Source: Nitrospiria bacterium (GTDB taxonomy: Bacteria > Nitrospirota > Nitrospiria > JACQBZ01). From it: DNA of 64,000 bases. Positions 4,006 through 41,659 of this stretch are shown here, piece after piece. The notes beneath the pieces were generated by a model. The model saw only the letters and a program-made list of their open reading frames with translations, searched no databases and was not told where the DNA came from. A program made the position numbers and the translations under genes. The DNA is taken from the NCBI GenBank assembly GCA_035498035.1, contig DATKAN010000026.1, positions 1 through 64,000 of the forward strand. The letters run 5' to 3'. Within the stretch, counting starts at the first letter, position 1. The number at the start of each line of letters is the position of its first letter.

Positions 4006-4890
4006 CTAATCTTCCTTTAATGTCTTCAGCAGCGTCCTTGCCATCTCGCTGACACCCGGATCGGGATCATTTACGGCCTGGTTCAGCGGACCCAGCGCGG
4101 CCTGCCCGTTCCGCTCGGCCAACAGCATCAAGGCATCCATCCGATGTTCGGGGCTCGCGTCCCTCAAAGCCACCTCGGATAATGGCTCAAGCGGGACAGG
4201 CCCGTCTCCATCCTTCAAGACTTCCAAAGCCGCCTCTCGAACCTGTGAATCCTCGTCCGAAAGGCCGGCAATCACCGCTTGAAGGGTCTCCATCCTTTTT
4301 TCTTCAGCCTCCTCCTTTAAAGTGGTTATGGCGGTCATTCGAGCTTGAGGATCAATTGTCGCCGCCGACTCGCGCGCCCGATCCTTTCCAGCGTCGGACG
4401 TTCCAAGGGATCCCTCTCGGCCACGAGAAACAATCATGAAATCGGCGTCCCGCTGGGCCGTGCCCGGTCCCGAATTCTTTGATACCACCCTGATCTCAAC
4501 AACCTTTGGAACGGGCGTACGACCATTTGAAAAAGAAGTTCGAGCGTAGGTTAGGGCATAGCTCTTGCCCTGCAGTATCCGCCGGATTCCTTCCTCCAGC
4601 GGGAGATTGTTGAATTCGGCCGAGACGGTTTCATTTGCAACAGAACGATCCAGAGAGGTCTCGACATTCGTAAGCTGGGCTAGCTTTTCCAGGACGTTTA
4701 TTAAGGATACCGCCACAATCTTTGCGCTCAGATGATTGTCTTTGAGGGTCAGAACAAACGGTGGATCGGAAACGGAGGCGGCGTTTATGTTTTTTTCCCA
4801 CAGAACGAGGAATGGCAGAATGAATGCGCCCGTTAACGCCAAAACCCTGAACTGTGTTCGATGGTCTTTCATGCGGGAGGATCGTTCCAA
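4006..4890 (-). CDS. Secreted STN-like/HEAT-repeat protein, cassette copy 1
   Basis: This is a 294-residue hypothetical protein. Its N-terminal signal sequence has a hydrophobic core LALTGAFILPFLVL, with export likely before about residue 38. A region at about 45-120 (VLEKLAQLTN, NLPLEEGIRRILQGKSYALTY) resembles the STN fold of secretins and TonB receptors. A charged linker leads to two or three HEAT-type helical repeats at about 190-290. The start is placed at a TTG codon because AAGGAG lies 7 nt upstream; the in-frame ATG six codons later has no such site. The protein is clearly paralogous to the one at 6737. It heads the unit that ends with the RTX gene at 3184. STN and HEAT regions usually mediate protein contacts, but no partner is known. 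Confidence 0.75.
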   Translation of the reverse strand: MERSSRMKDHRTQFRVLALTGAFILPFLVLWEKNINAASVSDPPFVLTLKDNHLSAKIVAVSLINVLEKLAQLTNVETSLDRSVANETVSAEFNNLPLEEGIRRILQGKSYALTYARTSFSNGRTPVPKVVEIRVVSKNSGPGTAQRDADFMIVSRGREGSLGTSDAGKDRARESAATIDPQARMTAITTLKEEAEEKRMETLQAVIAGLSDEDSQVREAALEVLKDGDGPVPLEPLSEVALRDASPEHRMDALMLLAERNGQAALGPLNQAVNDPDPGVSEMARTLLKTLKED

Positions 4891-4906
4891 CTTCAGGCTC
4901 CTTCAT

Positions 4907-5017
4907 CCATAAATCTAGATCACCCTTCTATGTGAGTGAGCAATTTTGGTGCCATTATTTATCTCCAAAATACAAGTGCCACCTTGTGATAATGGCAACT
5001 ACGGTGTATCTAGATGG
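4907..5017. repeat. Imperfect palindromic element with terminal inverted repeats
   Basis: The ends are inverted: CCAT-AA-ATCTAGAT-CACC at 4907-4924 against GGTG-T-ATCTAGATGG at 5003-5017. Nested inside are TGCCATTAT (4950-4958) with ATAATGGCA (4989-4997), and ACAAG/CTTGT around a 6-nt loop. The whole 111 bp can fold as one long hairpin. It could be a small non-autonomous element or a folded leader of the STN/HEAT gene that starts 17 nt away. No other copy was noticed in this window. Confidence 0.45.
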
Positions 5018-34567: not shown

Positions 34568-35512
34568 TCAAAGCGCCGGGGGATTTCCGGCTCGAAGGCT
34601 ATCGAGCGCTTTCTTGACGAACTCGGCGTCTTCCGTTCCGGGTGCGAGATTGTGGAAGGCATCGGTCCAGCTTCGGTCGGCTAAGGCGTATTGTTTGAGA
34701 CGCAGGAGAGCCACACCCTTATACCAAAGCAGCGCCGGATCCCTCGGCATCTTGACCAGGGCCGTTTCGAAGTGATCGAGGGCTTCCTGCGAACTTTTCC
34801 GATCGTCCGGAGACGACGTCTGGAGTTGGATGACCCCCAGAAAAAAATGCCCTTCGAAGTTGCCTTGGTCGAGCTCGACCACCTTGCTCCAGGCCTTCCT
34901 GGCGTCGTCAATTCGCTGCAAGGTCATGTAGGATCGCCCGGCCATGATCTGACCCTGAAGATCATTCGGGTTGTCCTTCAAGTGTTGCTCAAGCTTCGCA
35001 ACCATCTCGGCCGGATTCGGCATTCCCGAAGGGTTGGCTGGGCCTTCGGTTTCCGCAAACCTTCGCTGGGCCTCGAGGCCGATCCTGGACGTTATATATT
35101 CGTAAATCACCGTGGCACTTCCCACGACGATAAGAGTCAGCGCAATCGATCCGGCCCATTTCATCGGTCCGGAGGTTCGAGGGCCCGGTTTTAAATCCGG
35201 ACTTTTTGGCACGGGACGCTGTTTGGAAAACGAATCGAGTTTGTTTAGGATTTGGCCGAGCCGGTTTTCGTCGATCGCTTTGAGCCGTTGATGATCGGGA
35301 GAGTTCAGCCGGCCTTGGGCCAGATCGAGATCCAACTCGGCCAGCGAATTCAGGAGGGTCTGTTTCTCAATTTCAAGATCGATTCGTTCCTGGTCGAGGG
35401 ATGCCTCGAGACCCATGGGAATCGGGGCGCCGTTCTTATTCCATAAAGGATAGGCCAGGACGACGATGACTGCGAAGAGGATGAGGCCCGCTGTGAGGGT
35501 GAATAAAAGCAT
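34568..35512 (-). CDS. ccmI: Cytochrome c biogenesis factor CcmI, TPR type
   Basis: This 314-residue protein has an N-terminal helix (LLFTLTAGLILFAVIVVLAYPLW), a cytoplasmic leucine-zipper-like segment (DLEIEKQTLLNSLAELDLDLAQGRL) and a second helix near 118-138. A periplasmic TPR region follows at about 165-300 (PNDLQGQIMAGRSYMTL, AWSKVVELDQGNFEGHFFLGVI). This is the CcmI layout: the TPRs hold apocytochrome c and deliver it to CcmF/CcmH. It follows ccmH by 15 nt. Confidence 0.9.
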   Translation of the reverse strand: MLLFTLTAGLILFAVIVVLAYPLWNKNGAPIPMGLEASLDQERIDLEIEKQTLLNSLAELDLDLAQGRLNSPDHQRLKAIDENRLGQILNKLDSFSKQRPVPKSPDLKPGPRTSGPMKWAGSIALTLIVVGSATVIYEYITSRIGLEAQRRFAETEGPANPSGMPNPAEMVAKLEQHLKDNPNDLQGQIMAGRSYMTLQRIDDARKAWSKVVELDQGNFEGHFFLGVIQLQTSSPDDRKSSQEALDHFETALVKMPRDPALLWYKGVALLRLKQYALADRSWTDAFHNLAPGTEDAEFVKKALDSLRAGNPPAL

Positions 35513-35527
35513 GGGTGGGATTCCGGG

Positions 35528-36013
35528 TCAGTCTTCCCGGCTATGCAACTCCTTTTCGATGCGTTGGCGGAGGCGCTCATCGAGGGGAGGCGGGTCTTCG
35601 TGTTTTGCCGCGGCCGTCTGGGCGACCCAGCGGGACACGGTTCGGTAGAGAAGAATCCCGCCGGTGCCCAACAGGACAAAGGGGCCGGCCCACAGGACCC
35701 AGTTCAGTCCTCTTTTCCGCGGCGTCAGGAGGATATAGTCCCCGTAGCGGCTCAGGAAATAGGCCCGGACCTGATCGGGGGATTCTCCTTTGAGCAGTCT
35801 TTCCTTGATGAGATCGCGCATCTGTTGCGCCAGTTCGGCTTGGGATTCCCAGACGGATTCGTTTTGGCAGATCGTGCAGCGCAGGGTTTTAGCGATCTCG
35901 CGCACTTGAAGGTCGATCTGTTGTTCTTCGACCGTCTCCCCCCAGGCGGGAAGGGCAAGGCTCGAGACCATGAGAATCAAAGGGAGGACGGCGATGATCG
36001 GGGCTTTCTTCAT
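35528..36013 (-). CDS. ccmH: Cytochrome c maturation protein CcmH
   Basis: This 161-residue periplasmic thiol oxidoreductase is anchored by one C-terminal helix. It has a signal peptide (about 1-25) and the family motif LRCTICQNESVWES (C46/C49), DLIKERLLKGESPDQVRAYFLSRYGDYILL, then a helix at about 107-130 and a charged tail. It reduces apocytochrome cysteines before heme attachment. It overlaps ccmG by 4 bp in an ATGA junction. Confidence 0.96.
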   Translation of the reverse strand: MKKAPIIAVLPLILMVSSLALPAWGETVEEQQIDLQVREIAKTLRCTICQNESVWESQAELAQQMRDLIKERLLKGESPDQVRAYFLSRYGDYILLTPRKRGLNWVLWAGPFVLLGTGGILLYRTVSRWVAQTAAAKHEDPPPLDERLRQRIEKELHSRED

Positions 36014-36564
36014 GAACGGGAGATGGATCTTCCCTCCAGAAGAGGCTGAAGGATGTCGTCCGTCAAATGGGTATAGCCCGGACCCACCAGCGGGCCGACG
36101 TATTTATAGCGAATGACGCCCTGCCGGTCGATCACAAAGGTTTCCGGAACCCCGTAGACGCCGTAGTCGATCGAGATCGTTCCCTTCAGGTCCCGGACAT
36201 GGTCGAAGTTGCTGCCGTATTCCTGCAGGTATTTCTGGGCGTCTTCCAGGCGATCCTGATAATCGATGCCCAGCATCACGAAATCCGGATTCGGGCTGAA
36301 TCGCCGGTTGAGGGCCAGCAGATTTTCATGCTCCGTGCGGCATTCCAAACACCAGGAGGCCCAGAAGTTGATCAGGAGGACCTTGCCCTGGAAGCGGTTC
36401 GTGGACACGATTTCTCCCGTGCGGACTTCCGGGCCGGAAAACGTCACCGCCGGGGTGCCGATCAGGACGGTCGGGATGGACCGCGGGTCGCCCCAAAGTC
36501 CTTTATAGAAAAGGGCCAGGAGTCCCAGCACCGCCATCACCAGAATAAAATGCCAGATTTTCAT
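36010..36564 (-). CDS. ccmG: Thiol:disulfide interchange protein CcmG/DsbE
   Basis: This 184-residue protein has an N-terminal anchor (FILVMAVLGLLALFYKGLW) and a thioredoxin domain with FQGKVLLINFWASWCLEC (C72/C75), GIDYQDRLEDAQKYL and GVYGVPETFVIDRQG (cis-Pro). Its active site CLEC differs from the usual CxPC of the family, which may shift its redox potential. The start at 36564 overlaps the ccmF stop in an ATGA junction. The frame runs on upstream but inside ccmF, so the longer form is rejected. It passes electrons from CcdA to CcmH or apocytochrome. Confidence 0.94.
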   Translation of the reverse strand: MKIWHFILVMAVLGLLALFYKGLWGDPRSIPTVLIGTPAVTFSGPEVRTGEIVSTNRFQGKVLLINFWASWCLECRTEHENLLALNRRFSPNPDFVMLGIDYQDRLEDAQKYLQEYGSNFDHVRDLKGTISIDYGVYGVPETFVIDRQGVIRYKYVGPLVGPGYTHLTDDILQPLLEGRSISRS

Positions 36565-38513
36565 GCGGACGCCTTTGTCCTCGGTCTGAAAATATTCAAG
36601 ACGACGCCCAGGCCCATGATCCCTCCGCCGATCCAGACGAGGAGCACGAGCGGGTTGATGAGCGCCCGGACCGTCACGCTGTTGTCCGACGCCACCTCGG
36701 GCATCGTCAGAAAAATATGCCCCAAATGGATGGTGTAGAGAGCGGCCTCCGTTGTCGGGGTCTCGGATACGGGATAGAGTCGCTTCTGTGGTTTGAGGAC
36801 ACTCAGCAGTCGGTCTCCCTTCGACACCTCGAAGAGACCTTCCTGGGCGGTCCAATTGGCCCCGGAGACCTCATGCAGTCCGACCATCTTGATGGAGTAG
36901 TTTTCTAACTGGATGACGTCGCCGATCCGCATCGAAACCACCTTCTCAACCTGGTAAACGGTGGAGGCGATGATCCCGACCACCATGATCAGTACCCCCA
37001 GATGGGTGACGAGTCCGGCGGAGCGTCTTTGATTATTCGTGAAACCCCGATAAAAACCGATCAGGTAATTGGTCTCATGACGCCGGGCCCAGAGGGCCGA
37101 GACCTTCCCAAAATCCACGAAAATCGTCGTGGCGACAAACGTGACGACCAAGGCGCCCGCCATGCCGAAAACCGTTCGGATCCCGATCAGCCATGCGAGG
37201 ACGGCCGCTGCGACGGCGAGGAGTGCGGCGGGCATAAAATTCCTTTTCAGATTGTCCAACGAGGCCTTTCGCCACGCGATGGTGGGGCCGATCCCCATCA
37301 TCAGCAGGAGACCGAGGGCCACCGGCATAAAGACGGCGTTGTAATAGGGGGGGCCGACGCTGACCTTGGCCGTCTTGAGGGTCTCGACCAGGAGCGGGTA
37401 GAGGGTTCCCAAGAAAACCGTCGCCGCGGCGACCAGAAAGAAAAGGTTGTTAAAAAGGAAGACGGACTCTTTGGAAACAATCGAGTCCATTTCGATCTGG
37501 CTCCGGAGCTTCCCCGAACGGACGATGAGGGTTCCGAACCCCAACGCGAGCATCAAGGCCAGGAACACCAGGATGTACAGCCCTCGTCCCGGATCGGTCG
37601 CGAAGGTATGAACCGAAGAGAGGACGCCGCTCCGGACCAGAAAGGTTCCGATCAGCGAGAGCGAAAAGGTTACAATGATCAGAAAGAGGTTCCAGACCTT
37701 GAACATCTTTCTTTTCTCCTGGACCATCACGGAATGGAGAAATGCGGTGCCGACCAGCCAGGGCATGAAGGAGGCGTTCTCCACCGGGTCCCAGCCCCAA
37801 TACCCGCCCCACCCCAACTCGTAATACGCCCAATACCCGCCCATGAGGATGCCCGTCGTCAGTGAAATCCAGGCAAAGAGCGTCCACCGTTGCGTGACCT
37901 TGATCCATTCCTCGCCCAGCCGCCCGGAGAAAAGGGCCGACATGGCAAAGGCAAAGGGGATCGAAAAGCCGACGTAGCCGAGGTACAGCATCGGCGGGTG
38001 AACGACCATCGCCGGATCCTGAAGGAGCGGGTTGAGGTCCCGGCCGTCCGGAGGGACGGGGTATAGACGTTCAAAAGGGTTCGACAGAAAAACGATCATG
38101 GCCAGGAACCCGAACATGATCAAGGATTGGATCGATAAAAGATAGGGCATGACGACGGGTTGGGTTCTCCAGTGCAGCCAGACCACGAGGGTACTGTAGG
38201 CCGTCAGGATCCAGACCCAGAGCATCAGGGAGCCTTCGTGACCCCCCCAAAGTCCGGCCACTTTGTAGAAAACCGGGAGCTTGCTGTTGGAAGTTTCCAT
38301 CACGTATTTCACGGAATAGTCATTCGTCAGAAAGGAATAGATCAAGGCCGCCATGCCGATGGAGACCAGGAAAAAATTCAGGGTCACGGCCTGACGGGCG
38401 ACCCGAACCAGTTCGGGACGGGCGGTTTTCAATCCCACGATCGGACTGACCATGGCGAGGACCGAAAGAACCAAGGCCAGAACGACGCAGAAATGTCCGA
38501 TTTCAATAAACAT
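36561..38513 (-). CDS. ccmF: Cytochrome c heme lyase subunit CcmF
   Basis: This 650-residue polytopic membrane protein of about 15 helices is the heme-attaching synthetase of System I. It has LWGGHEGSLMLWVWIL, PPMLYLGYVGFSIPFA, the WWD domain WGGYWGWDPVENASFMPWL near residue 240, LHSVMVQEKR and FLVRSGVLSSVHTFATDP with conserved histidines. A soluble C-terminal region lies at about 555-610. The length is typical. It follows ccmE by 24 nt and overlaps ccmG by 4 bp. Confidence 0.97.
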   Translation of the reverse strand: MFIEIGHFCVVLALVLSVLAMVSPIVGLKTARPELVRVARQAVTLNFFLVSIGMAALIYSFLTNDYSVKYVMETSNSKLPVFYKVAGLWGGHEGSLMLWVWILTAYSTLVVWLHWRTQPVVMPYLLSIQSLIMFGFLAMIVFLSNPFERLYPVPPDGRDLNPLLQDPAMVVHPPMLYLGYVGFSIPFAFAMSALFSGRLGEEWIKVTQRWTLFAWISLTTGILMGGYWAYYELGWGGYWGWDPVENASFMPWLVGTAFLHSVMVQEKRKMFKVWNLFLIIVTFSLSLIGTFLVRSGVLSSVHTFATDPGRGLYILVFLALMLALGFGTLIVRSGKLRSQIEMDSIVSKESVFLFNNLFFLVAAATVFLGTLYPLLVETLKTAKVSVGPPYYNAVFMPVALGLLLMMGIGPTIAWRKASLDNLKRNFMPAALLAVAAAVLAWLIGIRTVFGMAGALVVTFVATTIFVDFGKVSALWARRHETNYLIGFYRGFTNNQRRSAGLVTHLGVLIMVVGIIASTVYQVEKVVSMRIGDVIQLENYSIKMVGLHEVSGANWTAQEGLFEVSKGDRLLSVLKPQKRLYPVSETPTTEAALYTIHLGHIFLTMPEVASDNSVTVRALINPLVLLVWIGGGIMGLGVVLNIFRPRTKASA

Positions 38514-38537: not shown

Positions 38538-38996
38538 TTATTGTTGTAGGGTTTTCAGAAGATCCTTCTTGGGAAGCTGCACGCCGGCGCGTTTCATCTC
38601 AATGGGCATGTAATCCTCGGAGTGTTTGGCCATGATCAGATTGGAGTGAAACTGTTTTTGGGAATCCCAGTATCCTTCGACGACCGCCCCCTTGCCTTCC
38701 TTGAAGAGATCGGGCGGTATTCCCTCGAACACGACCGGGATGGTGGCCGCACCGTCCGTTAATGTGAAACTCAGCTTCAGCGTATTGGGAACGACCTGGA
38801 GACTTCCTTTTACGACCATCCCTCCCACCCGGATCTTCTTGCCGTAGTAGGCCGGCGAAAAGGAAACCACTTCGGACGGAGTGAAAAAGTAGACTAAGTT
38901 TTGCCCGAACTGGCCCAATCCCAGATACATCAACCCTCCCGCGATCACGATCAGGCTGAAGATTAAACCGACTTTTTTGCCCTTACTCAAATTCAC
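38538..38996 (-). CDS. ccmE: Heme chaperone CcmE
   Basis: This 152-residue protein has an N-terminal anchor (KKVGLIFSLIVIAGGLMYLGL) and an OB-fold domain at about 40-120 (KIRVGGMVVKGSLQV, DGAATIPVVFEGIPPDLFKEGKGAVVEGYW). The heme-binding motif is IMAKHSEDYMP, with the covalent His near residue 125 and the following Tyr. It carries heme from CcmC to CcmF. The first 14 bp overlap the upstream OB-fold/CcmD-like gene. Confidence 0.95.
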   Translation of the reverse strand: MNLSKGKKVGLIFSLIVIAGGLMYLGLGQFGQNLVYFFTPSEVVSFSPAYYGKKIRVGGMVVKGSLQVVPNTLKLSFTLTDGAATIPVVFEGIPPDLFKEGKGAVVEGYWDSQKQFHSNLIMAKHSEDYMPIEMKRAGVQLPKKDLLKTLQQ

Positions 38997-39480
38997 CGAC
39001 CTCGGGTTCGTAAAGCTTGGACCGCTTGATTTCAGTATACAACAACCGAACTCGTCGTTCCATCATAAAAAGAAACAGGGCCAGCGGGATCATGACGAGA
39101 TACGCCGCGATAATAAATCCGTAGTTCGGGATGAGGGCCAGGTCCTGCGCCAGAAAGCTTTGCGAGGCGGCATCCCAGCCGCCGATCACGACAAGCGTCT
39201 TGAGTTCCCGAAGACTGTCCGTGTCTTTTCCTTGGTAGACGACCGGAATCCGCTGTCCGTCTTCGACGAGGGAAAACAGCATTTGGGAGGTGAGGGGATC
39301 CTTCCGAAGGCTTCCGGCTTCCACCATGCCCAGCATGCGAACCGGGCCGGCCAAATGATTTTTCAGGACCTGCTCCGGGCTCAGGGGCCGCACGTCGCGG
39401 TTATAGCGGTGTGCGCCGATGGCGGCAATCCAAAACCCGACCAGAATCAATACTCCCCAGCGGATATAAAATCCTTTCAT
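38983..39480 (-). CDS. CcmE-like OB-fold protein without heme His, joined to a CcmD-like C-terminus
   Basis: This is a 165-residue protein with an N-terminal helix (WGVLILVGFWIAAIGAH). A domain at about 35-115 parallels CcmE (GPVRMLGMVEAGSLRKD, LFSLVEDGQRIPVVYQGK). A C-terminal helix with basic tail (NYGFIIAAYLVMIPLALFLF, RRVRLLYTEIKR) looks like CcmD. At the place of the CcmE heme motif it reads LALIPNYG, so the covalent His is absent. No separate ccmD gene is seen between ccmC and ccmE. I infer that it fuses CcmD function to a heme-free CcmE-like domain that docks onto CcmC or CcmE. It follows ccmC by 10 nt and overlaps ccmE by 14 bp. Confidence 0.75.
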   Translation of the reverse strand: MKGFYIRWGVLILVGFWIAAIGAHRYNRDVRPLSPEQVLKNHLAGPVRMLGMVEAGSLRKDPLTSQMLFSLVEDGQRIPVVYQGKDTDSLRELKTLVVIGGWDAASQSFLAQDLALIPNYGFIIAAYLVMIPLALFLFMMERRVRLLYTEIKRSKLYEPEVGEFE

Positions 39481-39490
39481 CGTCCCGAGC

Positions 39491-40189
39491 TCATAGACGA
39501 ACCTCTCCCAACAGGCGCCCCTTTTTGGCTTCCAGGAGCTGCTTGAGGTAGAGCATCTGGGTGCGGACTCCCACCATGTAGGTGAACAGCAGGTAAAAGC
39601 CCACCGACATGAAGATCAGCGGATAGAGCATAACGCCGGCGATCGCGATTCCGCGCTGGGAGATCGAAAGCGGCTGGTGCAGGGTGCGCCACCACTCCAC
39701 CGAGAAATGAACAATCGGGAGATCAACGGCGCCAACAATCGCCAGGATGGCGGCGTAGCGCGCCTCCCGTTCCTTGTCCTCGATGAACGTTCGAAGCATG
39801 AGATAACCGATCAGGATCAACAATAAAATGGTGAATGAAACCAGGCGCGCATCCCAGGTCCACCAGGTGTTCCAAGTCGGTTTGCCCCAAACCGATCCGG
39901 TAAAGAGGGCCCCGGACGTAAAAAAGACGCCGATGCCCGCAGTGGCATGCGCCAGGTTGTCGATCAGCGGATCCCGTTTCCAGAGATACCACAAACTGGC
40001 CGCCGTCAGGACGGCATAGGCCGTCATGGACGTGCTGGCGAAAGGAACATGGACGTACATGATCCGGACGACCTCGCCCTGATAGGAATCGGGAGGGGAG
40101 GCCACCAGGCCAAAATAAAGCCCGATCGCGATGCAGATTCCTCCTGCGGTTCCTATCCAGCCTTCAAACCTTCGGATCCATCGAATCAT
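39491..40189 (-). CDS. ccmC: Heme handling protein CcmC
   Basis: This 232-residue membrane protein of six helices has the WWD signature WGKPTWNTWWTWDARL at about 102-117. The flanking histidines are in MYVHVPFAS and VDLPIVHFSVEWWRTLHQ. It transfers heme to CcmE with CcmD. The ATG lies directly against the dispersed repeat at 40195-40303 and has no AGGAGG, so the repeat forms most of its upstream region. Confidence 0.96.
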   Translation of the reverse strand: MIRWIRRFEGWIGTAGGICIAIGLYFGLVASPPDSYQGEVVRIMYVHVPFASTSMTAYAVLTAASLWYLWKRDPLIDNLAHATAGIGVFFTSGALFTGSVWGKPTWNTWWTWDARLVSFTILLLILIGYLMLRTFIEDKEREARYAAILAIVGAVDLPIVHFSVEWWRTLHQPLSISQRGIAIAGVMLYPLIFMSVGFYLLFTYMVGVRTQMLYLKQLLEAKKGRLLGEVRL

Positions 40190-40317: not shown

Positions 40318-40995
40318 TTAATGATCCAAGATAAATTCAAACACCCAGAAGGAAACGATCGTAAAAATGACGTCAAAGATGATCAACAACTCGATCCATG
40401 GACGGTAGAACATGACCGGTTGTCCCTGCAGGACGCCCCCCGTGGCCTCCACCGCCCCGATGATGACCGGGACGATCAACGGCAGAAGCAGGATCGGGAG
40501 CATCACTTCCCGGGCTCGGATCTGGACCGTCATCGCCGAAAAAAGCGTGCCGACCGCCGAGACCCCCAAGGTCCCGGCCACTAATATTAACATAATGAGC
40601 GGAATCTTTTCAAAGATATCCAGGTTGAAAAAGATCACGAACAACGGAAATAATATCGCCTCGACCACCAGCATGAACAGCAGATTGCTCACCAGCTTCC
40701 CCAGGTAGATGGCCCCCCGCGGGATCGGGTTCATCTGGAGGTTCTCGAGGCAGTCGTTCTGCAGCTCCGCCGTGAAGGATTTTCCGAGGCCGATGATCCC
40801 CGTGAAGATAAAGGCCACCCACATGATTCCCGGCATCAATTCCTGGGCGGTTTTCTGGTCCATGGAGAAGCTGAAACTGAAGATGAGAATGACGATGAGC
40901 GCGAAGAAGAACATCGAGGAGATGTTCTCCCGGCTTCGCATCTCGCTGAGCAGATCTTTCCAGGCGAGCCATCGGATCACGTTAAAAAAGTTCAT
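40318..40995 (-). CDS. ccmB: Heme exporter membrane subunit CcmB
   Basis: This 225-residue protein of six helices is the permease of the CcmAB ABC transporter, which uses ATP to release holo-CcmE from CcmCD. It starts with RWLAWKDLLSEMRSRENISSMFFFALIVILIF, has the FTAELQNDCLENLQMNPIPRGAIYLGKL cytoplasmic segment typical of CcmB, and ends in hydrophobic helices. The first 14 bp overlap ccmA. Confidence 0.95.
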   Translation of the reverse strand: MNFFNVIRWLAWKDLLSEMRSRENISSMFFFALIVILIFSFSFSMDQKTAQELMPGIMWVAFIFTGIIGLGKSFTAELQNDCLENLQMNPIPRGAIYLGKLVSNLLFMLVVEAILFPLFVIFFNLDIFEKIPLIMLILVAGTLGVSAVGTLFSAMTVQIRAREVMLPILLLPLIVPVIIGAVEATGGVLQGQPVMFYRPWIELLIIFDVIFTIVSFWVFEFILDH

Positions 40996-41659
40996 GAGCG
41001 GCGACCAGATCCTTCACGGCGATTTCGCGCAGCACTCCCTGATGCAGCACACCGGCTTTCCCGGCCACCTCGGCCGAGTGGACGCGGTTGTGGGAGGTCA
41101 TGAGGACTGCCGCCCCCTGCTCGAGATTCTCCCGAATGAAGTGGTTCATCATCGTGATGCCCCGCTCATCCAGGGAAGAATAAGGCTCGTCCATCAGAAG
41201 CACTTTGGGACGGATCAGCATCGCCTTGGCGATCGAGAGCCGCTTTTTCATTCCTTCGGAAAAGTAGCGGATCTTGAAATCCGCGAAGGCTCCGATCCCG
41301 ACACGATCCAACGCCACCTTGATTTCGCGGGCGGTAGGGGACAGGCCGCGAAGACCCACGGCGAAGCGGATGTTTTCCACGGCGTCCAGCTCGTTGTACA
41401 GATACGATCCGTGCGCGATCATCAACAGAATCGCACGGACCTTATTTCGGTCCCGGATACCGTCAAAGCCCAGCAGCTCAAAGCGGCCCGAGGAAGGTTT
41501 CTGGAGCGTGGCCAGAACCTTTAACAGAGTGGTCTTGCCGGCACCGTTCGGGCCGAACAACGCGTAGCATTCCCCCGAAGCCACTTCAAAGGAAACGTCC
41601 TTCAAGACCTGGTAATGACGGTACGATTGGCTTAGCTGTAATCCTCGGATGGCAGACAT
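40982..41659 (-). CDS. ccmA: Heme exporter ATP-binding subunit CcmA
   Basis: This 225-residue ABC ATPase has Walker A GPNGAGKTTLLKVLATL, a Q loop, the signature FSEGMKKRLSIAKAML, Walker B VLLMDEPYSSLD and the switch His in MTSHNR. The serine-poor signature (SEGMKKR) is usual for CcmA. It heads the ccm operon, about 30 nt after a promoter at 41696-41725. Confidence 0.94.
   Translation of the reverse strand: MSAIRGLQLSQSYRHYQVLKDVSFEVASGECYALFGPNGAGKTTLLKVLATLQKPSSGRFELLGFDGIRDRNKVRAILLMIAHGSYLYNELDAVENIRFAVGLRGLSPTAREIKVALDRVGIGAFADFKIRYFSEGMKKRLSIAKAMLIRPKVLLMDEPYSSLDERGITMMNHFIRENLEQGAAVLMTSHNRVHSAEVAGKAGVLHQGVLREIAVKDLVAAHELF

Follow-up and report, generated by a model that had tools for sequence, protein, structure and literature searches.

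A close described counterpart of the locus analysed here is the System I CcmABCD/E complex of E. coli (8ce8; PMC10457321). In that complex the transmembrane helix of CcmE binds CcmB and an AlphaFold model sets the CcmE OB domain over the WWD loop of CcmC, and CcmD is described with a periplasmic helix first, a membrane crossing from residue 18 and an inner end that touches CcmC (PMC10457321). Dissociation of CcmE after heme transfer is reported to need CcmD (PMC10457321). CcmD is likewise reported as necessary for release of holo-CcmE (PMC6204919, PMC9084895, PMC10457321) and seen as a stabiliser of the complex required for that release (PMC11868835). Its role has been called enigmatic (PMC6204919), and one report finds no heme ligand in CcmD (PMC13141917). 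According to a 2022 paper, ccmD is universal among bacteria whose genomes encode Ccm (PMC9084895), and a 2025 survey devoted to CcmC and CcmD, in which the class Nitrospira is covered, gives example CcmD sizes of 37 and 100 amino acids (PMC12077264). Ccm systems that lack CcmD and have a CcmE of the CxxxY type are described in archaea (PMC9084895).

The window, the whole stretch of 64,000 nucleotides analysed here, carries a System I operon whose genes all lie on the minus strand, arranged as ccmA, ccmB, ccmC, X, ccmE, ccmF, ccmG, ccmH, ccmI. The gene ccmA (40982-41659) codes for the ABC ATPase, assigned from Pfam ABC_tran and its position, and is followed by ccmB (40318-40995; Pfam CcmB, 134.2 bits) and ccmC (39491-40189; NCBIfam ccmC, 196.5 bits, over its cut-off). 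Downstream of X lie ccmE (38538-38996; Pfam CcmE, 110.7 bits), which has a standard AKHSEDY heme motif, and ccmF (36561-38513; Pfam CcmF_C and Cytochrom_C_asm). The thioredoxin-like ccmG occupies ORF 36010-36855, with Pfam AhpC-TSA matching from residue 132 and NCBIfam dsbE at 113.6 bits, below its cut-off; the true start of the gene is probably inside this ORF. The operon continues with ccmH (35528-36013; Pfam CcmH, 118.6 bits) and ccmI (34568-35512; TPR models and a weak cytochro_ccmI match), and after it come a TlpA-like gene with thioredoxin-type Pfam matches and a CcdA-like gene assigned by eye. Membership of System I is given by family matches for ccmA, B, C, E, F, G and H, that of ccmG being under the NCBIfam cut-off. 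The locus thus encodes CcmA, CcmB, CcmC and CcmE as the E. coli complex does, and differs from it by having X for CcmD. It shares with the archaeal systems a departure from System I at CcmD, but its CcmE is of the HxxxY type, CcmG, CcmH and CcmI are there, and in place of a missing CcmD it has X.

Gene X is an ORF spanning exactly 38983-39480 on the minus strand and codes for 165 residues; it lies between ccmC and ccmE, where the original prediction, which gave no strand, had placed it. It starts 10 nt 3' of ccmC, and its last 14 nt overlap ccmE, which begins with GTG. The genome assembly to which the window belongs (2.67 Mb, 67 contigs, 98.96% complete) has two sites with a CcmE domain, both at the ccm locus. 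A separate ccmD, whose occurrence elsewhere would have spoken against the earlier interpretation, was searched for throughout the genome and no match to Pfam CcmD (PF04995) or CcmD_alt (PF20077) was obtained, in a search that could overlook a divergent ccmD of very small size. ResB was also not found in the genome, and System II was rejected as the true pathway on this ground. Since ResB is missing and CXXCH-pattern sites are in excess (195 versus 90 for the reversed pattern), System I is likely the maker of the c-type cytochromes encoded in this genome.

An AlphaFold2 model of X has a helix at residues 2-30, five OB-fold strands at 47-115 and a long helix at 120-155. It was run without templates and reached a mean pLDDT of 78.2 and a pTM of 0.57 with an alignment of 24 rows, and 82.5 and 0.60 with 55 rows. 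Residues 2-30 (39391-39477) form the N-terminal membrane helix, residues 31-115 (39136-39390) the CcmE-like OB domain, presumed periplasmic, and residues 118-160 (39001-39129) a CcmD-like helix with a basic tail (PNYGF..AY..ME+R..LY..IK). The CcmE-like OB fold foreseen from the sequence was borne out by Pfam CcmE, which matches residues 34-114 with 39.3 bits (E 8.4e-10; cut-off 24.6), and by the predicted structure, whose top Foldseek match in the PDB is E. coli CcmE 8ce8_E (E 2.0e-6 and 2.3e-6 for the two models). VIA-align gives OB folds of PolD, tRNA synthetases and RPA values equal to those of CcmE, with Z between 9.4 and 11.3 over all 50 rows, so that structure alone cannot name CcmE; sequence does. 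X is 31% identical to the adjoining CcmE over 101 columns, and a HMMER profile of 24 X sequences matches 8ce8_E with an E value of 4e-8. The family was defined from 55 distinct X proteins pooled from the collected loci, leaving out identical copies and matched ranges shorter than 140 residues. Pfam CcmE matches all 55 at E up to 1, the best at 3.2e-13, and R48, G51, G84 and G100 of X are common to CcmE in a joint alignment. X does not reach the cut-offs of the NCBIfam CcmE equivalogs (best 28.7 bits versus 126). On the strength of these profile matches, the OB domain of X is homologous to CcmE.

X therefore resembles CcmE (PF03100; E. coli 8ce8_E, 1sr3) in its N-terminal transmembrane helix followed by an OB domain, in a Pfam score over the cut-off, in its top fold match and in the acids and the arginine kept in the docking loop. 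It differs from CcmE in lacking the H/CxxxY motif and the free C-terminal tail, in having a second transmembrane helix, in a loop that reads LRELK instead of FKEGQG and in forming a separate clade. This separation has support of 100/98 in a tree of 28 X and 36 CcmE rows over 86 columns with long branches. X standing as one clade apart from the CcmEs rules out that it is a decayed copy of ccmE. A chance or artefactual ORF is ruled out as well, the frame being open and conserved in 55 distinct sequences and, in the three examined for it, subject to purifying selection.

The heme site of CcmE is replaced in X, as had been noticed at first reading. When X is aligned jointly with 118 CcmEs, of which 112 have H and six have C in the heme motif, AKHSEDY of CcmE stands opposite LIPNYGF of X. 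Position 118, opposite the heme-binding His, is P in 46 homologues, T in seven, S in one and N in one (locus L132); His or Cys was found there in none of the 55. The free C-terminal tail of CcmE is also absent, the chain continuing into a transmembrane helix. The CcmE-derived module of X, judged by its missing motif, should be unable to hold heme covalently, and X is a CcmE by domain but probably not by function.

The assignment of the last helix to CcmD, also part of the original prediction, is supported through relatives of X and not by Pfam on the protein of the window, in which the CcmD model finds no match. Among the X homologues Pfam CcmD is the commonest family after CcmE, with 14 of the 55 at E up to 1 and a best value of 0.0051, none over the Pfam cut-off. 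NdhL also matches the C-terminal helix (E 0.0064; seven of 55 members) and was judged a chance helix match because CcmD matches twice as many members with a best value similarly strong. A comparison by hhalign of the X helix with canonical CcmDs of this phylum gave 0.2%, that is, no match. The link comes from family f20. Its CcmC shares about 50% identity with that of the window, and its ccmC-ccmE slot holds a short ORF, starting SNYEFIAAAYGATAVIL, that reads as a stand-alone CcmD of about 50 residues. These ORFs lie at 4879-5015 in locus L118, 5547-5683 in L119 and 612-754 in L147. For two of the three, Pfam CcmD gives E values of 1.8e-4 and 3.5e-3, under the curated cut-off in either case; on the same two ORFs LapA_dom, another helix model, scores E 5.3e-4 and 2.4e-3. 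Aligned with the C-terminal profile of X by hhalign, the f20 slot ORFs give 90.8% (E 1.2e-6; 42% identity over 36 columns), against 0.4% for a control with the N-terminal helix of X. When 8,819 non-X ORFs of at least 30 residues from the collected loci were searched with an HMM of the X helix, the three f20 slot ORFs came first to third (E 0.0064, 0.012 and 0.026; next 0.43). We read the last helix of X as CcmD, by a kinship that is partly transitive, via f20.

A tyrosine at the start of this helix is found throughout, as PNY120 in X, SNY in f20, MGGY in family f2 and MGGY17 in E. coli CcmD. Y120 is Tyr in 52 of the 55 homologues and matches by position E. coli Y17, of which a Y17C variant is reported to cross-link heme (PMC12077264). 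Y120, atop the CcmD helix, could be seen as the point through which X relays heme non-covalently from the WWD site of CcmC to CcmE. We hold this to be very improbable: X has no conserved His or Cys, and CcmDs without an OB domain also have this Tyr, so that it leaves the added domain unexplained.

The distribution of X and ccmD argues for the reading of X as CcmD. Searching at the protein level gave matches for 38 of 58 related genomes, part of them with CcmE alone. In profile searches of 295 genomes from the phylum, full-length X was present in 35, Pfam CcmD in 50 and a CcmE of at least 70 bits in 99. X and CcmD occur together in none of the 295, and all 35 genomes with X and all 50 with CcmD have a CcmE of at least 70 bits. 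Since X and CcmD exclude each other in genomes and the f20 CcmD of the same slot resembles the X helix, X is, as far as these comparisons go, the CcmD of this Nitrospirota lineage, extended by a heme-less CcmE module. It is like CcmD (PF04995) or CcmD_alt (PF20077) in its place in the ccmC-ccmE slot, its exclusivity with ccmD, its kinship to f20 CcmD and a helix with Tyr at the outer end and a basic tail. It is unlike them in its length of 165 residues, a complete CcmE-like domain and a further transmembrane helix preceding the CcmD-like one, and direct profile comparison with the canonical CcmDs tested yields no match.

In 14 genomes a CcmE was found without X or CcmD, three of them from f20 and 11 from families f26, f32, f33 and f35. 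Ten of these 11 were read at the locus and have a CcmE with a CxxxY motif (KCPSKY), which means that the phylum has at least three types of Ccm system. The CxxxY CcmEs of these four families lie in rearranged ccm loci (L120-L125, L143-L146). At about 7230-7370 in L123 a short ORF after ccmC, MDNLIYLFGAYTVAWFGMLVYTYRSTRK..., looks by eye like an alternative CcmD; Pfam gives no CcmD match for it.

Among the sampled genomes of the phylum, X is found in several families of the class of the window and in a single family outside it (f22). The large family f2, which we take to be Nitrospiraceae in the GTDB sense, has no X, and many of its genomes carry a canonical ccmD. Some f2 genomes encode secreted OB proteins of 128-148 residues with weak Pfam CcmE matches and no heme motif (L138, 2417-2860; L139, 2416-2862; L141, 2773-3159; L142, 2659-3096); at L140, a fifth f2 locus with a weak CcmE match, no protein was made out. 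A scan of 84,980 species with two peptide patterns, which a divergent X outside Nitrospirota would escape, matched 64 stretches and led to 32 X loci. The records of these 32 loci are all titled Nitrospirota, Nitrospirae, Nitrospira, Nitrospiria, Nitrospirales or Manganitrophaceae, and several records with X bear the title 'Nitrospira sp.' (L061, L073, L076, L078, L079 and L081).

The order ccmC-X-ccmE, whose comparison across related operons had been suggested together with the prediction, is found at 55 of 55 loci, with X beginning 4-95 nt past the matched end of ccmC. More than 90 nt separate X from ccmE at nine of these loci, up to 1,808 nt in L075, which is on the same contig as L051. The gap is loosened always after X, and X is thus tied more strictly to ccmC than to ccmE. 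At 8290-10096 of L051 the gap between X and ccmE holds a transposase-like ORF of 375 residues and a 134-residue ORF that appears endonuclease-like by eye; the frames of the X homologue and of ccmE both stay open. The stretches fetched for L039 (upstream of 7494) and L132 (upstream of 4808) show no ccmA or ccmB ahead of ccmC.

In a CcmC tree that includes CcmD-type rows and has long branches, the X-type CcmCs fall on one side of a branch with support of 99/92. Together with the single clade formed by the X OB domains, this fits one joining event behind X, within what the long branches allow.

R48, G51, G84, R91, K94 and G100 are invariant in the 55 homologues. Three pairs among three near relatives give a dN/dS of about 0.2 for X overall, a value by which the gene is under purifying selection. 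In the same three pairs the ratio is 0.03-0.08 for the CcmD part and 0.26-0.38 for the OB part, and the mean information is 2.45 bits in the OB part versus 3.16 bits in the helix. This faster change would suit an OB domain that is left over from a duplication of CcmE and serves only as a spacer or stabiliser for the CcmD helix, with contacts of no importance. We consider such a relic quite unlikely in view of a domain kept in 55 of 55 homologues, with its invariant residues and a dN/dS well below 1.

Residues 88-94 of X (39199-39219) form the loop that matches D101, R104 and E105 of CcmE, and include the invariant R91 and K94. In E. coli, the contact between the two proteins involves R73, D101 and E105 of CcmE with D47, Q50 and R55 of CcmC, and the pairing of CcmE R104 with CcmC Q49 is important when holo-CcmE is released, as reported in PMC6204919. 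There, R104A alone was without effect (PMC6204919), which warns against leaning on a single residue. According to a HMMER alignment to 8ce8_E, the equivalent of D101 (residue 88) is D in 36 and E in 18 of the 55 homologues, that of R104 (residue 91) is R in all 55 and that of E105 (residue 92) is E in 42 and D in 12. R73 corresponds to residue 60, which is K in 16 of 55 and so is not kept. The loop departs from CcmE elsewhere, PDLFKEGQG of CcmE standing against D.LRELKT of X, and at K94 the agreement with CcmE is partial (K in 50 of 112). On the side of the partner, D34, Q37 and R42 in the CcmC of the window align with D47, Q50 and R55 of E. coli CcmC, and equivalents of these residues are present in 55 of 55 CcmCs from X loci. 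From these alignments, X is a protein that keeps three of the four CcmC-facing residues of CcmE, without the heme-binding His. The idea that X may be a docking version of CcmE gains support from the retained loop. Fusion, replacement of ccmD, loss of the heme motif and retention of docking residues are supported by sequence.

The nature of the loop also bears on the main rival reading, in which X is a receptor whose OB domain pairs with that of apo-CcmE as an OB-OB heterodimer and holds CcmE beside the WWD site of CcmC, in line with the docking idea of the original prediction. A relative of CcmE anchored at the CcmC-CcmD site would be suitably placed for this, and CcmC, CcmD and CcmE form a stable complex in E. 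coli according to PMC6204919. We find a receptor of this kind unlikely, since the loop retained in X matches the CcmC-facing loop of E. coli CcmE and not a CcmE-CcmE face, and OB-OB pairing of CcmE was not found in the portions of the literature examined.

The explanation that we find somewhat more probable than otherwise is that X is an enlarged CcmD whose tethered OB domain stands in for CcmE, competing for or capping the site on CcmC and displacing holo-CcmE. We infer the topology of X, its place on CcmC, the competition and the release by analogy with the E. coli proteins. The C-terminal helix (118-160) would be seated on CcmC like CcmD, N-terminus outside and tail inside, and the OB domain would replace the short periplasmic helix of CcmD and overhang the periplasmic face of CcmC. 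As this domain stands where the first helix of CcmD stands, it would lie over CcmC, and with X in place of CcmD an OB domain would be permanently attached to each CcmC. Between cycles the OB domain would fill the docking site of CcmE on CcmC. After heme attachment, the real holo-CcmE would be displaced and depart for CcmF, a step that needs CcmD in E. coli. The faster evolution of the OB part relative to the helix stands against this reading, and the acidic and Arg residues of the loop could be kept for folding instead.

A more specific and rather doubtful form of this proposal is that the release factor of these Nitrospirota is a CcmE decoy joined to CcmD, acting as an intramolecular competitor for the CcmC site after each transfer. 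If that were true, the way in which CcmD frees holo-CcmE would be competition for the site.

In the portions of the open-licence literature covered by our search, no description of a CcmE-CcmD fusion or of a protein like X was found, and we present X as a previously undescribed variant of System I. The slot of CcmD can house a large protein that is missed by searches with models of small CcmDs. In X, CcmD is welded to a mimic of CcmE that has lost its heme site and kept the loop facing CcmC, which ties the job of CcmD to the docking site of CcmE. The natural fusion found in these Nitrospirota makes this link testable.
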